This document shows positions 1,852-63,971 of a stretch of 64,000 nt of DNA, one piece after another. Each line of letters opens with the position of its first letter. Positions within the stretch are counted from its first letter, which is position 1. The position numbers and the translations under genes were made by a program. The stretch lies in the NCBI GenBank assembly GCA_031835245.1, contig JAVKOQ010000070.1, positions 149,857 through 213,856 on the forward strand, in the 5' to 3' direction. This DNA is from Balamuthia mandrillaris. Its lineage: Eukaryota; Discosea; Longamoebia; Balamuthiidae. A model generated the notes under the pieces. It made no database searches and was not told the origin of the DNA. It saw only the letters and a list, made by a program, of their open reading frames with translations.

Positions 1852-1926
1852 TGGCAGAGGTGACAGGAGTCGAACCCGCAACACACGGGGTTGAAGCCCG
1901 TTGTTCTACCATTGAACTACACCTCT
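1852..1926 (-). tRNA. tRNA-Trp (anticodon UCA)
   Basis: Read on the minus strand this is a complete 75-nt cloverleaf with an encoded CCA end. The acceptor stem AGAGGTG pairs with CACCTCT, the D arm is GTTC...GAAC, the anticodon stem ACGGG/CCCGT encloses the loop CTTCAAC, and the T arm contains GTTCGA. The loop gives anticodon TCA, so it decodes UGA (and by wobble UGG) as tryptophan. This agrees with the many in-frame TGA codons in the window and fixes the genetic code as table 4. Confidence 0.95.
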
Positions 1927-7100: not shown

Positions 7101-7565
7101 TTGTGCAATTTGATAAATAGTTTTACCTTGATTTACATCAGTTTTTGAAAATATATTCAAATATTTTGTTTTACCATAATCTGGATTAGTCTCTGGTGTT
7201 CCAGCATCTCTTGTAATACTTACTTCACCGTTTATGATAAATTGATTTTTTAAACCAACTGTATTTCTTTTATTGACTTTATCTAATATTTGTTCCATTT
7301 CTGAATCAGATAGTGGAATCGATTTTAATTCTCCTCTATTTCTAAAATAAATTATTTCTTTTCAATTTTCAATCAAACTTTGTTCATCTTTTCTCTTTAA
7401 AACATTATCAGAATATTTTTTTAAAACATCATTTAATTCCGAATTATTAAACGGATCAGAAATTTGTTTTAAAGTAATGTCTCTGTTTTCTCAACCATAA
7501 TGTTTTAATAAAGAAATTAATTTTTCTTCAAATTTAGCTTCATTTTCTTCTGGTTTATATAACAT
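4179..7565 (-). pseudogene. hsdR: Type I restriction enzyme R subunit, interrupted by an internal stop
   Basis: HsdR is the motor and nuclease subunit of type I restriction. One frame runs from ATG 7565 to TAA 4179, equivalent to 1,128 codons, but codon 645 is TAA (5631-5633), probably a CAA or similar codon mutated once. The N-terminal piece keeps the nuclease core (D167, E181 and K183, in the segment PVIQIELKG), Walker A HATGSGKT (about residue 326) and the DESH box (about 431). Helicase motifs V and VI (LLTGFDS; QAISRTNR) lie beyond the stop, so the truncated product should lack motor activity. I found no other in-frame TAA or TAG. It is preceded by hsdM with a 20-base gap. Confidence 0.88.
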
Positions 7566-7585
7566 AATTTCTCTTTTATAAATTT

Positions 7586-10306
7586 TTATTTCAAAATTTT
7601 TATAAGTTTATTTATAGCTATAGAATCTGATTCATTAGCATCAAGTTCTGATAATAAAGTAGCTAAATTTGCTTCATTTTCTTTTATTTCACTGTTTATA
7701 TTTTCTAAAACATCTTCATATTTTTTGTGTAAATTTTCAAATCTAAAAACAAAATCTAAGATTATTTTTTTAGATTTAGATTTTAGATTGTTTATTATAA
7801 GATTGGTTCAGTTTGAAATTAAAATTTCTATAATTTCTTCATTTGTTAATGTTTGAAAAGTATTATAAGTTTGTGAAATTAGTTCTTTATTTAAATCTTT
7901 TATTAAATTATTAATATTGTTTTTATTATTTTCTAATTCATCTATTTGTAAGATTAGTGACTCGAGAGAATTATCTTCAATTTGTTGAGTTTTTAGATTT
8001 TTGGCTTCTTTTTTTATTTTTTTAGTACTAATTTTTCAAACGTCATCTTTTTCTTTAAAATCAAAGTACATATCTGTTTTATCTTCATCACTTATGGTCT
8101 CAATAATTGAATTAATTTCTTCTGAAATTTGATTAACTTGTTCTTCATATTCTTGTCTTTGTTTTAATTTATCAACAAAAAATACTGAACTTATCATATC
8201 AGGATGGATAATTTCGTGATCTCAAGATTCTATTTCTTTAACAATTACTGCTTCTTTTAATTTTGTTTTTTTAGAAATTACTCTTTCTTTTTCTATTATT
8301 TGTGCTGTTGATTTAATGAAATCTAAAATTTCTTCATCTGTTTTGTCCAAAAATTTATTAAATTCAAAATACTCTAAATAATCGTTAATAACAAGTGATG
8401 AATTCATTAAAATTTGAAAAATGTCATATTTATCTAAGAAGCTAATTTCTTCTAATTGATTAAAAACAAAATTAATTATTAGTTTTTCTAATTCAATTTT
8501 ATTTAGTGTTTTTAATGCATCTCAATTACTAAAATTTGTTTTAAATAGATTATATATTCTTTTTCCTAATGCGTCGTAAGAATTTAAATAACTTTGAACT
8601 GAAGAAGAATTAAATATTGTTTCTTGAATATTTTCTGGATCTTTAAATAGATAATAACCTTGTTTTTCTGTAGGTTTTAGTAATTGATTTTTGATATCTA
8701 AGAACTTTGTAAAAAATTCATTAAATTCATCTAACTCTGTTTCTGATATATTTCCGTAAATAGTAGAATATAAATCAAATTTTTCTTCTTTTTTGAAATT
8801 ATCTAAGTATCTAGAAATATTTAAGTTATAGTCATTTTCTCTTATTTCGCTTACATCTACTAATCTTGAAAAATCTTTTAGTTCTATTTTGTTATTTACA
8901 GTATCAGCGATTTTTTTAATATGTGAAATTTCTAATTTGTTTTTCTTTCCTTCTTTTACAAACAATTTTGAAGCGTCTACAAATAATATTTGATTTTTTT
9001 CGTCATTAGTTTTTCTTTTTAAAATAACAATTATTGTTGAAATTGATGTACCATAAAAAATATCTGATGGTAAACCAATAATAGAATCAATCTCTGCATT
9101 TTCAATTAATCTTTCTCTTATTATTTTTTCGTTTCCACCTCTAAATAAAACCCCGTGTGGTAAAACTATAGCAACAATTCCATCTGGACTAATATGGTAT
9201 AAATCATGTAGTAAAAAAGCAAAGTCAGCCTTAGCTTTAGGTGCTACTGCATAGCTTCTAAATCTTTTATCAGATTCAGCATTTTCTGTATCTCATTTTA
9301 ATGAATAAGGAGGATTAGAAACAACAGAATCTACTCTTAAAGGTTCTGTTGAATTTATTTTGTCAATAGGTCAATCTTGTTTTAAAGTATCAGCATTTCT
9401 TGCATGAATTTCAGAAACATTAACTCCGTGCAAAATTAAATTCATTTTTGTTAATTTGTATGTAGATTCATTAATTTCTTGTGCATAGTAGGTGACTGAG
9501 TGTTTCTTTTTATTAAATTTTTGAAAAACTTCACCTATATTTAAAAGTAAAGAACCAGAACCTGATGTTGGATCGTAAATTTTAATATTGTCTTTGTGTT
9601 TTAAGTGAAAAGCTACTATTTCAGCCATTAATAAAGAAATTTCGTGAGGAGTGTAAAATTCACCTCCTTTTTTTCCTGCAGATGATGCAAATTTACCTAT
9701 TAAATATTCATAAACAAAACCTAAAATATCATATTGTCCTTTTTTAACAGGAATATCTTTGATAATTTCAATAAGTTTTTTTAACTTTTTAGTTTGTTCA
9801 GCTTCATTTGTACTTAATTTGTATAACTCATCAGATAAAGTTTTAAAAATATTTTCAAATAAATTTTCACTTTTTCCTCTTAAGTTTGAATCAAAAGAGT
9901 TAATTGAACGATTTAGTAAACTAGCTGAAAAATTTCTTGCATTATCCTTCATTCAAGAAGAATATAAATACTGATGCTGGATAAAATAACCTAAATTTTT
10001 ATTTGCAGATTCTTTTATTTCTTCGTATTCATTTTTAGAATAAGGACTTTTAATTGAACTATTATCTTCATAATAATCATCATTTAGTCATTGAATATCT
10101 TCGATATTTCCGTTATATTTTAAAAATCATTCTTCGAATCTTTGTGAAATAGTTTTATAAAAAATAAGTTCAAGTAAGAAATTTTTATACTCAGTAATTT
10201 CTAATGAACCTCTCATTTCGTTAGCAGCTTCTCAAATTTTGTTTCCAAGTTCTTGTTTTGTAAATGTTTTATTTGTTTCTATTTGTGTATTTTTCTTTTT
10301 TGACAT
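7586..10306 (-). CDS. hsdM: Type I restriction-modification DNA methyltransferase subunit M
   Basis: A 906-residue HsdM, much longer than the common 500-residue form. The N-terminal half is a standard N6-adenine methyltransferase: GEFYTPHEI near residue 216, the SAM motif DPTSGSGSLLLN at about 245-256, and the catalytic NPPY near residue 330. The C-terminal 500 residues are Lys/Glu/Asn-rich with coiled-coil-like stretches; I do not recognise a target recognition domain there. The start follows a strong AAAGGAG site. I checked the frame and saw no TAA or TAG. No hsdS lies in this window, so specificity must come from elsewhere or is lost. It precedes the broken hsdR. Confidence 0.85.
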
Positions 10307-55475: not shown

Positions 55476-55516
55476 TGAGCAGATCCCCTTTTTTTAGAAA
55501 AATAGAAAAGGGGATC
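55476..55516 (+). mobile_element. Solo left-end remnant of IS1221
   Basis: 41 bases match the left end of IS1221 copy 2 almost exactly, including TGAGCAGATCCCC, TTAGAAAAATAG and AAAAGGGGAT; the rest of the element is absent. The remnant folds into an 11-bp stem (GATCCCCTTTT / AAAAGGGGATC). Its outer end faces tkt. On the inner side it breaks directly into the truncated lanKC-like gene, whose stop codon TAG begins at its last base. It may act as a transcription terminator for tkt. Confidence 0.88.
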
Positions 55517-57138
55517 TATCATTCTTTCAACATTTTTTTATTTTGTGAATTTTTATTTTTATTAAAATCATTCAAAAGATAAAAACAATAAAAAATTAAA
55601 CTTGATATTTTTAATTTATAGATATTTTTATAATGAACTTTTTTGTTTTCTGTATTTTCAAACTCTAAATCATTAATAACAGAAAAAATCAATTTATGTT
55701 TTCAACTTTCGAATTTAAACTTAATTTTTGGATTTTTAGCTAAAATATTTTGCACTTTATTGATTATATAATTTTCTGAAAACATTAAAAATGCTTCTTT
55801 TTTATAGCATTTTTGTTTAATTTTTTCTAATTTTTGTACAAAATTAACTTTTTCTGGATTTTTGTATAAAAGTAAATTAAGTGATTGAAAAATATAAGAT
55901 TTTAAACCAAAAAACTTTGTAAATTTTCAAAACAACAACAAATCCAAAGAAAATAAATATTTATCTTTTTTAAAGTAAAAATGATTAAAAAAAATGTTGT
56001 AATAGTACAATTGCTAACTTAAAATAATCTTTTTGAAAATGAGTTAATTTATTTGATTTATCAATTTGGAATAAATCTGTATCTAAAATAACGTTATTTT
56101 TTAAATCAAATTTCTTTTTAAAATCTTCATTAGTGAAAAAAGAAAAATCATAATCTATAAAGTGAAATTTATTCTTGTTTGTTATAATGAAATTTCCTAA
56201 ATTAATATCCTTTAAAATAATGTTATTTTTATGATGCAAATCAATTGTTTTTACCAAATTTATAATTAAATTAAACAAAAATTTAGAATAATGTTCGTGA
56301 TTAGTTAATGAATAAATTAGATTAGAATTTAATACATTTCCTAAATCTCTACCATTTATAAACTCTTTTACAGTATAAAAAAGTTGTTTTCAAAAAATGA
56401 TTCTATAAAAATAGATGGATTAATAATTTTTCAAAACTTTTGTTCACGTTTTCTTAAACTCACCAAAGCAACTTTTGAATCAAAATAAGTATAAATGTGA
56501 GTTTGTTTAACTGTTAGTAATTTATTTTCATTTTGTTTAGCACCTAAAAAAATAAATCCAGAAGTATTTTGATATATGTTATAGGGTAATCTATATTGTG
56601 AAAGTTTAGGTGAATCTTTTGGTTTTTCTGCAAAAACATCCTTTACAAATGAAGGTAAATAAAAATATGATTTACTTCTATCTGGTTCTTTTTTTCTGAG
56701 TAATGGGATTAACAAAATATGGTCTTTTGCTATGATTTGTTCCAAATCTATAAAAAATAATAGAATTTTTGTACTGCTTGTCTACTGAAATATTTAAGCC
56801 TTTATATTTTTTTAATAGTTGATACAAATTTTCGATATGTAGTTTAAAATCTTCTTCATTTTTTGGATAAATTGTAATTAATTTACCATACATTTGCAAA
56901 TCTAAACTTTTTGAAGAATAAATCTTGGCTAATTTATGGTTTTTAAATGCTTAAATTCTAAAAAATTATTTACACAATATGTGTAAATAATTTTTATAAC
57001 TTTGTAGTAATCCCTTATTCTGGGAGCTATATGAATTTTTCAACCTTGAAATAGTAGCGGGTAATTATGAAAAATTAAAAACTTAAAATTTTCATTTTTT
57101 GATACATTATAATTAACATTTGATGAAGAGACAACCAT
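55516..57138 (-). pseudogene. Class III lanthionine synthetase (LanKC)-like gene, frameshifted and truncated
   Basis: From ATG 57138 the pieces match LanKC in order: FQGWKIHIAPR (near 57040), FKHLK, GKLITIYPKNEEDF (56890-56850), IIFYRFGTN (about 56755), PDRSKSYFYLPSFV (about 56680), then a kinase domain with hinge YTVKEFINGRDLG (about 56365), catalytic loop ILKDINLGNFI (about 56205) and metal-binding FIDYDFSFF (about 56155). Four +/-1 shifts at short homopolymers (about 56942; T7 56689-56695; about 56380; A8 55987-55994) alternate two frames. About 170 further codons follow, but no LanC cyclase; the gene ends at the IS1221 remnant. Known LanKC enzymes phosphorylate Ser/Thr, eliminate phosphate and cyclise with Cys. 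Confidence 0.8.
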
Positions 57139-57154
57139 AATTTAATTATAATAA

Positions 57155-57325
57155 TTATTTTTTATAAATAATTATTGTGCATTGATTTGTGTCAATTTTT
57201 TCAAGTTCATTTTGTTTTGCTGCTAAATTCATTTCTTTATAACTAATGTTTAATTTATTAAAATCTAAAGAATCCAAATTATTTAGTAAATTTGCGTTGA
57301 GTAAAATAGTTGATAAATTGTTCAT
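57155..57325 (-). CDS. Small 56-residue peptide, candidate lanthipeptide precursor
   Basis: An intact ORF of 56 codons, 16 bases upstream of the LanKC-like gene on the same strand, with AGAAAG ahead of its ATG and a TATAAT (57348-57353) 22 bases further. The N-terminal 45 residues are Leu/Asn/Asp-rich and lack Cys (MNNLSTILLNANLL, LDSLDFNKLNI); the C-terminus is short, DTNQCTIIIYKK, with its single Cys flanked by two Thr. This leader-plus-core layout and its place directly before a LanKC gene suggest a precursor peptide. That role is inferred from position; only one thioether ring could form, and the peptide has no homologue known to me. Confidence 0.6.
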   Translation of the reverse strand: MNNLSTILLNANLLNNLDSLDFNKLNISYKEMNLAAKQNELEKIDTNQCTIIIYKK

Positions 57326-60457: not shown

Positions 60458-60485
60458 AAAAACTTACTAAAAATAGTAAGTTTTT
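60458..60485. terminator. Terminator between rluD and the ABC operon
   Basis: Stem AAAAACTTACT / AGTAAGTTTTT with loop AAAAAT, between convergent genes; usable in both directions. Confidence 0.83.
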
Positions 60486-62117
60486 ATTTATCTAAATAAA
60501 TTATATAATCAAATGCTTGTTCTCTTTTGTTGTCATTATGATGTGAAATATAAATTAATGTAAGGTCTTGATCATTTAATAATAAATTTAGAGCAATTTC
60601 CAAATTTTCTTTATCAATGTTAGATAATCCTTCATCTATTATTAACACATCTTTTTTAAAATATAAATTTCTTGCTAACGCTATTCTTTGCATTTGACCA
60701 GTTGAGACATCATTATCATCTTCTTGTCCTAAGATTTTATTTTTATCTATTGTTTGCAAATTTAATTTTTCAATTAGGTTATTTAGCTTGTTTTTATCAG
60801 AATTTTCTTCAAATAAAACAATATTATTTTCTATATTTGCTTCAAGTAAAAGCGAGTTATTTGCTAGATAGTTAAAGTGTTTGTTTATTCATTTAAAATC
60901 AATCTCTTTAACTTCATATTTAGCATTTAGTAAAACATTTCCATCATAGTTTTTCTCAAGACCTAAAAGAATTCTGGCAAGCGTAAACTTACCTGAACCA
61001 TTTGAACCTTTTATAATGTATTTTTTAGCTGGATATATAATTAAATTTTTATTGTTATACAATGTTTTATCCTTTAATTTTAAAGAGAGATTTTTAATTA
61101 AAATGCTTGAAAATACTTCATTTTCTAAGTTAAATGCACTTACTGTAAGTGTTAAATTAAATGGTGCAATATTTTGTGTATCTTGAATTTCTTTTTTGGC
61201 CTTTTTTACTTGAAGAAATTTTAAAATATCTTCAATTGTTTCATTTAGATGATCAAAAAAGTTATCTAACAAAGAACCAACAAATGCAATAATTGAAACT
61301 GATTTAATCAACTCAAATACATCATTTTTATGAACTAAACCAAAATAAACTATTATCACACCACTTACAAAAAGTTTAAAAACTAAATTTAAATTTTCTG
61401 AAATTAAAGAAAAAAACTTAGAAGTTTTTAAATAATTATTGTAAACATTTAAATTTGCATCTAGTTTTTTTGCAAATAATTTATTAAGTTTTTCTTTTTT
61501 ATTTAGAGTATACAACGCTGGTAAATAAGAAATGATACCTGTTATATTTTCATTAAATTTATTTCAAGATTCTGTTTTTGCAATAAATGTTTTTTTTTTT
61601 TTAATTTTGGCTTTATAAATAAAGAAAAATTAAAAAATAATACTAACAAAGCTACTATAGTAACTCCAAGAATTCACTTGGTATAAAACGCAAAAATTAA
61701 AATTGCAATTATATATAAAAGATTTTTTAAAATTTCAATTAATGCTAAATAATATTTTTCAATTCTTTCTCCAATGTTGTTTTTAATTTGTGAATAATAA
61801 TAACCTTCAGAATTTTTGTTATATTCACTTAAATTAACCTTATCAAAAACCTTAATTGTTTTAGAAACAAGTTTGAGTTTTAAAATATTTATAAAACCTG
61901 TAAAAACAGCATTATGATAACCTGTAAAAACAGCAGAAACTATAAAAGATAGAATTAGAATAAGTGAAGTAATAACAAGTTTTTGATAGTTATGTTCTTC
62001 TAGAAATGTAAACAAATAGTAAGGAGCAACTGTAATAACAAAAGATGTAATTAAATATTGTAAAACATAAAAAATATTTCAAATATTAAATAAAAATAAT
62101 TTTGATTTTGTACTCAT
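60484..62117 (-). pseudogene. ABC half-transporter (exporter type), frame broken at an A13 tract
   Basis: About 540 codons: a type I exporter membrane domain with roughly six helices (residues 1-300) and an ATPase domain. From ATG 62117 (MSTKSKLF, after GAAGGAAAA) the frame holds until an A13 tract (61590-61602), where it shifts; the rest continues cleanly in the next frame. A tract of 14 or 11 A would restore one protein, so phase variation is possible. Walker A reads GSNGSGKFT, with Phe in place of the usual Ser/Thr after Lys. The signature is STGQMQRIALARNL and Walker B is VLIIDEGLSNID. It follows the second half-transporter by 12 bases and ends at TAA 60484. Confidence 0.82.
61590..61602 (-). 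repeat. A13 homopolymer inside the ABC transporter gene
   Basis: Thirteen consecutive A on the coding strand, the longest homopolymer inside a gene body in this window. It lies exactly at the point where the reading frame breaks. Confidence 0.9.
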
Positions 62118-62129
62118 TTTTCCTTCTTT

Positions 62130-63716
62130 TTATAGCCTAATTACCTCACCAAATTGCTCTAATATTTGTTCATTAAAATGATGACTAATAGCAATAATTG
62201 TTTTATCTTGTTGATTTAAAATGTTAGATCAAATAAGATTACTAAACTCTTTTTCTATATTATCTAGCGCTTCGTCTAAACACCAAATATCAAAGTTTCC
62301 ATATTTTAATCTAGCTAAAATTATTCTTTGTTTTTCTCCTTCAGATAAAGAATCAGAAGTTACTTCAGTATCAAGTGATAATTTTTTAATTTTAAATTCA
62401 TCAATTAGTGATTCCACTCTTTCTAGGTCTGGATTGTCATCTCACATAACTATGTTATTCAATAAAATATCATTAAAAATTGTGTTTTGATTGTCAATTA
62501 ATCCAATGTTTTTTAATGTATTTTTAGGATTTAATTCTTTTGTATCAACTTCATTATTTATCAAAATTGTACCTTCGTAATTTGTTTCTAAATTAGCTAT
62601 TAACTTTAAAAGTGTTGATTCTCCACTTCCTGAAGCTCCAACTATTGCATATTTTTTATTTTGCATAATTTCAAGATTTAAATTTTGAAAAATGAAGTCA
62701 TTTTCATTACTTTTATATGATAAATTATTTAATTTTATTGACTTAATTTTATCTATGTTTTCAACTTTAAAACTTGGTTGTTCGTGTGTTTCTAATATTT
62801 TTTTCAATGTTGGACCATATGTCATTAAAGGAAAAATTGAATTAAATAAAAGAGTAAAAGAAAAACTAATAATTATTAAATAAGAAAGCAAAAGAATAAA
62901 GCTTGATTTTCCTATGAAATTATTATAAATTAGTAAAGCAATTTCAACTATACTAATTCCAACAAATAAAACTGAAATAAAATTTCCAAATGAATTTGCT
63001 CAATCTGTTTTTAGATTAAATTTAAATTTATTTGCATATATATTTTCAGTTTTTTTAAATATTAAATTATTAAAAATATTAACTTTATTAAAGAAGTAAA
63101 ATATAGAAAATAATGAAAAAGTTTTAACCTGTTTTTGAGCATATTCTTCATATTTTTGCATTAATATTTGGAATTTATATTGAAATCTTGGAATAATTAT
63201 TATAAAAAAGGCAAGAATTAAAAACTGTGAAAAAATTATTGTTAAAAACATTATTCAAGATCATTGACTTAAAACAAATATAAAAACTAATGGTATTGTA
63301 AACGAAGAAATAAATTTAAATAAATAATCATGGAAAATCTCCAAAAGAAGCATTGTTGAATCTAAGTATTCATTAAACAATGCAACGGTTTTATTTCTTT
63401 GTTTGCTAATTTGAGAAAAACTCTGATTAGATAAATTATCTATTATTTTTTCTTGAAGTAATTTATATGTTTTTCTAGTAACAGATATCTTAAAAGCAGT
63501 TAAAATCCACTGAATTATTATAGATAAAACAAGTGAAAATAAACAAATTAATAATCAAATTAAAAACTCATCAAATTTAATTTCATTTAAAAAATAATCA
63601 ACAATATATTTGTATGAATATAAATTTAATGATAAAAATGCTACAAAGATATTTTGTAGCACAAAGATAAAAATATTTTTGGTTTTATCAAATGATAAAA
63701 TTTTTAAAATGCTCAT
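62130..63716 (-). CDS. ABC half-transporter (exporter type) with altered Walker A
   Basis: A 528-residue protein with an N-terminal membrane domain of about six helices (residues 1-290) and a C-terminal ATPase domain, the layout of peptide or lipid exporters of the MsbA/LagD class without a peptidase domain. The signature SLSEGEKQRIILARLKYG and Walker B IWCLDEALDNIE are present, but Walker A reads GASGSGESTLL: the invariant Lys is Glu (one base, AAA to GAA). ATP hydrolysis at this site should be lost. The frame is otherwise intact. It starts 10 bases after a small peptide gene and is followed by its partner. Confidence 0.85.
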
Positions 63717-63726
63717 AAATATCTTT

Positions 63727-63900
63727 CTATAAAATTTTCATTATATATTTTTGTACAAAAAATGTTAAAGTGATTTTTAAAATTTTTTGTTTTATCTTAT
63801 CAATATTATCTTTGAGAACAATATTTTCCAAATTATCTACTTTATCTAAAAGTGAAATAAAAAAATTAGATAATTTATTATCATATAATGAAATTTTCAT
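63727..63900 (-). CDS. Small 57-residue peptide at the head of the ABC operon
   Basis: An intact ORF with AAAGGA before its ATG, 10 bases upstream of the ABC gene and same strand. It begins MKISLYDNKLSNFFISLL, continues with LDKVDNLENI, and ends in a hydrophobic/basic segment (KITLTFFVQKYIMKIL). No Cys and no signal peptide cleavage motif. It could be a translated leader, an exported peptide or a small membrane protein. The segment LDKVDNLENI loosely resembles LDSLDFNKLNI in the peptide upstream of the LanKC-like gene; this is too short to prove relation. Confidence 0.55.
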   Translation of the reverse strand: MKISLYDNKLSNFFISLLDKVDNLENIVLKDNIDKIKQKILKITLTFFVQKYIMKIL

Positions 63901-63940
63901 ATATTATTTTTCCTTTCTTTCATATAAGAAAATTTTATTT

Positions 63941-63971
63941 TTCTTTCTTTCTTTCTTTTTTTTTTTTTTTT
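63941..63971 (-). repeat. (AAAG)n plus A16 tract upstream of the ABC operon
   Basis: On the coding strand of the ABC operon, 16 A (63956-63971) run into about four AAAG units, 40-70 bases before the peptide ATG. Both types of simple repeat are prone to slippage, and the placement in the presumed promoter recalls the vlp poly(A) switches. Confidence 0.8.

Follow-up and report, generated by a model that had tools for sequence, protein, structure and literature searches.

Has a mycoplasma of pigs lost the means to make a lanthipeptide, a modified peptide with rings, and do its relatives still possess it? The question is raised by a broken gene in a stretch of 64,000 nucleotides (hereafter the window) deposited under Balamuthia mandrillaris (assembly GCA_031835245.1, contig JAVKOQ010000070.1, positions 149,857 to 213,856). 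The contig is that of a mycoplasma in a 64.8-Mb assembly (775 contigs, without prokaryote relatives) and therefore probably entered a eukaryote assembly as contamination. On its minus strand, between 57138 and 55519, lies what is almost certainly a decayed LanKC-like gene: a class III-like lanthipeptide synthetase that falls into five open pieces in two frames (translation table 4). We further consider it likely that the window holds the decayed remains of a whole Mycoplasma hyorhinis lanthipeptide pathway – synthetase, precursor remnant and damaged exporters – and that this pathway, to judge from its appearance elsewhere, is intact in other species.

The five pieces correspond to successive stretches of one intact protein of 712 amino acids (aa) from another genome, G033, at 79–88% identity each. 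In gene order they are:

56932..57138 (open to 57141), minus strand: piece 1, the start of the lyase domain, with GWKIH and FK; RamC_N 5.9e-9, over the cut-off; LanKC 7.8e-10.
56681..56950, minus strand: piece 2, the remainder of the lyase core, with GKLITIYP, VDKQYKNS and YRFG; RamC_N 4e-12, over the cut-off; LanKC 6.6e-12.
56371..56781, minus strand: piece 3, the lyase–kinase linker and the start of the kinase, with DRS...YLPSFV; 83.6% identity to the G033 protein over 110 codons.
55988..56419, minus strand: piece 4, the kinase catalytic loop and DYD motif; Pkinase 6.4e-4, below the cut-off; LanKC 1.8e-7.
55519..56013, minus strand: piece 5, the end of the kinase and a linker; 81.5% identity to the G033 protein over 157 codons.

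Taken alone, pieces 3 and 5 have no significant family match in Pfam or NCBIfam, and the NCBIfam LanKC scores of pieces 1, 2 and 4 all lie under that model's whole-protein cut-off. A LanKC-like identity had been proposed in an initial annotation from a series of motifs (GWKIH, FK, GK-ITIYP, YRFG, DRS...YLPSFV, DINLGN and DYD), all of which we find in the order listed, on the minus strand and across the five pieces. The profile search it suggested for the fragments bears the identity out, with pieces 1 and 2 over the Pfam RamC_N cut-off and pieces 1, 2 and 4 matching NCBIfam LanKC. Further backing comes from retained lyase and kinase residues – the window pieces also encode the lyase residues equivalent to K65, H67, K94, K117, D152 and R163 of ThurKC – and from the closest solved structures, which, on re-comparison of Foldseek's own candidates, are class III/IV lanthipeptide synthetases matched over the whole length. 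The motifs had also been taken for an actinobacterial fingerprint, and this part needs correcting: the named relatives are mostly Bacillota (5 of 7 named organisms; ThurKC is from Bacillus thuringiensis), not actinobacteria.

Homology to the G033 protein extends only to residue 558 of 712, which means that the window copy has lost its C-terminal LanC-like domain; the exporter pair that follows the synthetase in G033 is likewise absent after the pseudogene, and the next gene is the same in both (a transketolase, by the annotator's reading). Might the breaks be sequencing errors in a gene that is intact in this strain? The gene does contain homopolymers of 7–8 bases, and one homopolymer length inside it differs between the window and the assembly of the M. 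hyorhinis type strain ATCC 17981 (L002; 99.75% identity to the window across 18 kb). Yet, that homopolymer aside, the same breakage recurs in the independent assembly (within the gene the two copies also differ by a six-base change in length and by two substitutions). Long genes elsewhere in the neighbourhood have open frames, and the window lacks both the 3′ end encoding the cyclase and the exporter pair that lies downstream in G033. We regard sequencing error as an extremely improbable cause; because the type strain is broken too, the decay is real. The earlier suggestion that the gene, decayed here, might be intact in other strains or species stands for other species (17 genomes, see below) but not for the type strain.

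Pairwise ratios of non-synonymous to synonymous substitution (dN/dS) between the window and G033, each an average across both lineages, are 0.07–0.23 for the synthetase pieces, 0.02–0.14 for five intact neighbouring genes and 0.19–0.20 for the exporter genes described below. Given the low values of the pieces, constraint acted on the synthetase during most of the period after the M. hyorhinis and G033 lineages split; its decay in M. hyorhinis is probably recent.

How widely does an intact version occur? Among 320 genomes of the order, 25 have a RamC_N match over the cut-off, a count in which M. hyorhinis is included. In 17 of the 25 one uninterrupted frame of 596–763 aa spans every domain, and three of these 17 nearly duplicate others; of the remaining eight, one gene runs off its contig end (L035) and seven are broken. 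A 395-genome sample of the class, of which an unstated number belong to the order and which so permits no ratio, gave seven RamC_N matches, six of them already among the 25. A separate profile search matched 176 of the 320 genomes, most of those listed through the kinase part only, and is left out of these counts. Genomes with an intact frame include G022 (apparently M. conjunctivae), G234 (apparently M. penetrans HF-2) and G110 (Mycoplasmopsis mustelae); a human mycoplasma is apparently among the carriers of a seemingly intact version. Contamination of the other carrier genomes was ruled out by in-frame TGA codons, read as tryptophan, in open frames at all 25 loci. In the window itself ARAGORN reports a 'tRNA-SeC' with anticodon tca (1852-1926, minus strand), most likely the tRNA-Trp with which mycoplasmas decode TGA. 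GC content is 18–24% in the synthetase frames against 21–31% in their loci, lower at all 25 (L032–L056). Two broken stretches that match only the C-terminal profile of the synthetase (G024:C1:755036-755707 and G095:C1:556218-556889) are possible relics of the pathway.

All 17 intact proteins keep the six lyase residues named above (ThurKC numbers being assigned by counting along the alignment), as well as the kinase catalytic Asp and Asn and the DFG Asp. Ten of the 17 were tested against family models: RamC_N is over its gathering score in every one and Pkinase over its cut-off in three. A role as defence kinases was considered and rejected; with PADLOC, three synthetases score no more than 41 bits across the kinase domain, and the ATPase of one ATP-binding cassette (ABC) half-transporter scores 60.7 bits against mad3.

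The strongest evidence for a peptide pathway is provided by precursor-like peptides and exporters, both unremarked in the initial annotation. At 15 of 22 distinct loci a peptide of 34–68 aa ending in Thr-x-x-Cys (TxxC) lies near the synthetase or an exporter pair; such peptides beside mycoplasma synthetases are new here. Their open reading frames (ORFs) lie upstream of one or the other and are often preceded by an AAGGAG-like sequence, and the C-terminal motif occurs once or twice, as in TIFC...TFIC, TLIC-H-TRIC and TFFC-T-TIVC. Among ORFs of 30–120 aa, [ST]xxC is present in the last 20 residues of 17 of the 46 lying directly upstream and of 135 of the 2313 other ORFs at those loci (odds ratio 9.5, p 8e-10), with upstream cases at 14 of the 22 distinct loci; we quote this test only, since the pattern for a second one, hydrophobic TxxC, came from the same data and that test was set aside. 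To arrive at the accepted 15, L046 and L048 were dropped from the 14 and the peptides of L032, L037 and G033 were added by eye; for several an inner Met was taken as the start. Of their 26 Cys, 25 have Thr or Ser at −3 (24 Thr), and other spacings from −1 to −8 occur at most four times; each peptide was picked for one such motif, and among the remaining 11 Cys 10 still fit. The pattern is that expected of methyllanthionine rings, were they to form here. It is also a departure, class III cores being better known for SxxSxxxC (PMC7268733, in excerpt). In G033 the TILC-bearing peptide lies 9 kb from its synthetase, upstream of another exporter pair. At L034 (M. conjunctivae) a second open frame before the synthetase, at ~9459-9650, ends TTYVCIVKSIPAL; its leader part has no ATG start.

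The corresponding features of the window are:

63727..63900, minus strand: precursor remnant, an ORF of 57 aa that precedes the exporter genes; it retains the leader part and has no in-frame Cys.
62130..63716, minus strand: ABC half-transporter 1, an open frame; ABC_tran 2.6e-23; Walker A Lys changed to Glu.
60484..62117, minus strand: ABC half-transporter 2, split into 62117-61542 and 61515-60484, with 72% and 71% identity to one intact G033 gene.
57155..57325, minus strand: 56-aa ORF with one TxxC (TNQC), directly upstream of the pseudogene, the position seen at other loci; a possible precursor or remnant.

The ORF at 63727-63900 has 52% identity over 46 aa to the G033 TILC peptide, which occupies the same place. 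Half-transporter 1 is 73.5% identical to a G033 gene that keeps the Walker A Lys, and the type strain has the same Glu. With the enzyme broken, the peptide devoid of Cys in frame and the exporters damaged, M. hyorhinis gives every appearance of decay in all three parts of the pathway. For the ORF at 57155-57325 there is no Pfam or NCBIfam match, and no protein homologue search was made. Just upstream of the precursor remnant (63938-63971, minus strand) a run of A is followed by GAAA repeats, and the length of this tract differs between the window and the type strain. Promoter poly-A tracts turn the vlp surface genes of M. hyorhinis on and off; by analogy, and given the difference in length, the promoter before the remnant may once have been phase-variable.

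Twenty of the 22 distinct loci have ABC half-transporter ORFs no more than ~6 kb from the synthetase (none at L035, where the contig ends, or at L055), a count based on a protein cluster that also includes other ABC transporters. Exceptions in arrangement are L041 (only a piece, where the contig ends), L039 (one half alone), L033 (both halves, on the opposite strand) and L047 (broken pieces). In the exporter halves tested (window and L036) there is no Pfam peptidase domain, the L036 half giving ATPase matches only. Half-transporter 1 of the window resembles NF045998, the Mbov_0121 family of peptidase domain-containing ABC transporters of mycoplasmas, at 133.7 bits; unlike that family it misses the cut-off of 500, and its alignment with the profile covers nothing before position 148 of 673. 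Near the first exporter pair of G033 lies a second N-terminal synthetase fragment (C1, ~399253-399408, minus strand); together with the two exporter pairs, this indicates that the G033 locus seems to have been duplicated. A transposase gene is located inside the first exporter gene at L037, and another between the synthetase and exporter genes at L038. At L036, opposed ORFs (7412-9516), HsdS specificity subunit-like by reading, separate the synthetase from a gene shared with the window; such pairs can invert. Nine flanking genes (at L032, L033, L034, L037, L038 and L044) were considered as further pathway parts and rejected: matches were to flavodoxin, triose-phosphate isomerase (TIM) barrel, FUR and transposase integrase cores, one gene had no match over the cut-off and three had none at all.

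Could these enzymes instead be a kinase coupled to a phosphothreonine lyase that acts on proteins of the cell or the host, rather than on a peptide precursor? The lyase fold is common to the SpvC/OspF family (PMC10604976, in excerpt). Against this stand the neighbouring TxxC peptides and ABC exporter halves, as well as the whole-length match to lanthipeptide synthetases, and we judge it very unlikely; the intact mycoplasma loci are likely to be lanthipeptide pathways.

The domains, catalytic residues, gene neighbourhood and TxxC pattern, as well as the breakage in the window, are seen in the DNA; from them we infer all chemical steps, export and processing as follows. A ribosomal peptide of 34–68 aa, carrying an N-terminal leader, would bind the synthetase, and the kinase domain would phosphorylate Thr in the C-terminal TxxC motifs. 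The RamC_N lyase domain would then eliminate the phosphate to give dehydrobutyrine (Dhb), to which the Cys three residues on would add, forming one or two four-residue methyllanthionine rings; closure might be assisted by a shortened, metal-free LanC-like domain, or proceed unassisted. Export would be carried out by the paired ABC half-transporters, which lack a recognized peptidase domain, and the leader would be removed by some cellular protease. Our guess is that the product is a small secreted bacteriocin or signal.

Does the C-terminal domain have a part in ring closure? Profile–profile comparison (hhalign) with class III LanC domains gives a probability of 98.0 (E 1.8e-12) across ~180 columns, in the last half of the 425-column LanC profile, while control comparisons with one kinase and ten column shuffles give 0.1 at most. 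The mycoplasma domain has only about half the length of LanC. Beyond the kinase, Cys or His is shared by 5 or more of the 17 proteins at no alignment column, and there is no CH or C-x-G motif; a zinc site is thus absent, as in class III generally. The initial annotation had proposed looking for an intact ortholog with a LanC-like zinc cyclase: orthologs there are, but with a short C-terminal domain that lacks conserved Cys and His and is no zinc cyclase. Lys625, Gly631 and Gly634 (G033 numbering) are invariant in 17 of 17.

Several results weigh against reading the intact loci as lanthipeptide pathways. The Pfam LANC_like cut-off is met by two of the ten proteins tested and missed by eight, and the matches fall at scattered profile positions (4-132 or 165-218), leaving the register of the cyclase unsure; LanC is built of repeats, and Pfam and hhalign align to different parts, so which half is retained is equally unsure. 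S726, F770 and D771 of ThurKC are not kept in the register of the ThurKC and hhalign alignments, and the column of R191, within a poorly aligned loop, has Arg in three of the 17. None of the ten passes the NCBIfam LanKC equivalog NF038151 (135–267 bits, cut-off 575); this, with the short C-terminal domain, leads us to file the mycoplasma synthetases as a divergent, shortened class III variant. An accepted precursor is missing at seven of the 22 distinct loci: the candidate at L051 is unconvincing, none convinces at L049, L052, L055 or L056, and directly before the L036 synthetase there are other genes (HsdS-like by the annotator's reading) and no precursor. Leaders are similar only a little between loci, dN/dS of the window's precursor remnant is 0.91 (46 codons, against G033), that is, no constraint, and no leader protease was recognized among the neighbouring genes tested. 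Finally, a single origin within mycoplasmas is not shown by a tree of 39 rows, in which the 20 mycoplasma rows need three label changes and branches are long; nor does the tree rule one out.

The state of the cyclase raises the possibility of an enzyme that only dehydrates, its reduced cyclase yielding linear Dhb peptides or leaving rings to form uncatalysed. The eight missed LANC_like cut-offs, the halved length and the loss of the ThurKC cyclase residues in the register used are as such an enzyme would have them; a Cys at +3 of Thr, needless for dehydration alone, is nevertheless almost always kept, and the invariance of Lys625, Gly631 and Gly634 also counts against it. We think dehydration alone unlikely and lean, with some reserve, towards intact loci that close rings at TxxC. 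A more specific proposal is offered only tentatively: lanthipeptides in mollicutes may be the work of a minimal class III synthetase, in which a half-length, metal-free cyclase has replaced the ThurKC residues and Lys625, near GxxG, helps to close the four-residue TxxC rings.

Within the tree, M. conjunctivae, G023 and G033 form a cluster. One or two of the gene families next to the synthetase in M. conjunctivae and G023 (ABC permeases by the annotator's reading) also occur in the window. Together, grouping and shared neighbours suggest descent of the synthetase locus within the M. conjunctivae/G023/G033 group.

Comparison with known systems places the mycoplasma proteins among, yet apart from, characterized synthetases. 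The matched chains of the class III enzymes PneKC and SalKC and of CuvL, which we take to be class IV, are 830–860 residues long, as against 596–763 in mycoplasmas. ThurKC, which with ThurA belongs to the andalusicin system of B. thuringiensis (class III; PDB 8sao, 8sap, 8sam), likewise unites a lyase, a kinase and a C-terminal domain in a single chain, shares the six lyase residues and has no zinc ligands. Its cyclase comprises residues 491-862 and labionin is made on ThurA1 (PMC10604976, in excerpt), whereas the mycoplasma C-terminal region is shorter, lacks S726, F770 and D771 in the register used, and the cores are TxxC. Class IV cyclases bind zinc (same excerpt), unlike the mycoplasma proteins, in which neither Cys nor His is conserved beyond the kinase. 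The class IV model LanL (NF038150), which also has lyase and kinase, matches ten of ten, always scoring below the class III model.

To our knowledge, mycoplasmas are not regarded as makers of peptide natural products. They are models of the minimal genome and have no cell wall; lanthipeptides in such stripped-down, wall-less bacteria would be unexpected. Since mycoplasma producers are without peptidoglycan, they would not need an immunity gene against a product directed at precursors of the cell wall. The initial annotation knew of no report of lanthipeptide biosynthesis in mollicutes, and among the matches listed from the open-licence literature we too find no report of a mycoplasma lanthipeptide; an excerpt of PMC4159009 (2014) does, however, briefly mention mollicutes in a list of classes that possess VenL-like lyase domains. 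The pathway may have been overlooked because of low LANC_like scores and naming: published mining sorted class III/IV clusters by matches to LANC_like and kinase models (PMC7268733, in excerpt), eight of our ten proteins miss the former, and the only named mycoplasma entry among the database relatives is a 'protein kinase-like protein'. The shortened cyclase would make the minimal needs of a metal-free lanthionine cyclase directly testable. If the reading is true, the pathway is constrained in some lineages and lost in others, and mycoplasmas would compete or signal by way of modified peptides.
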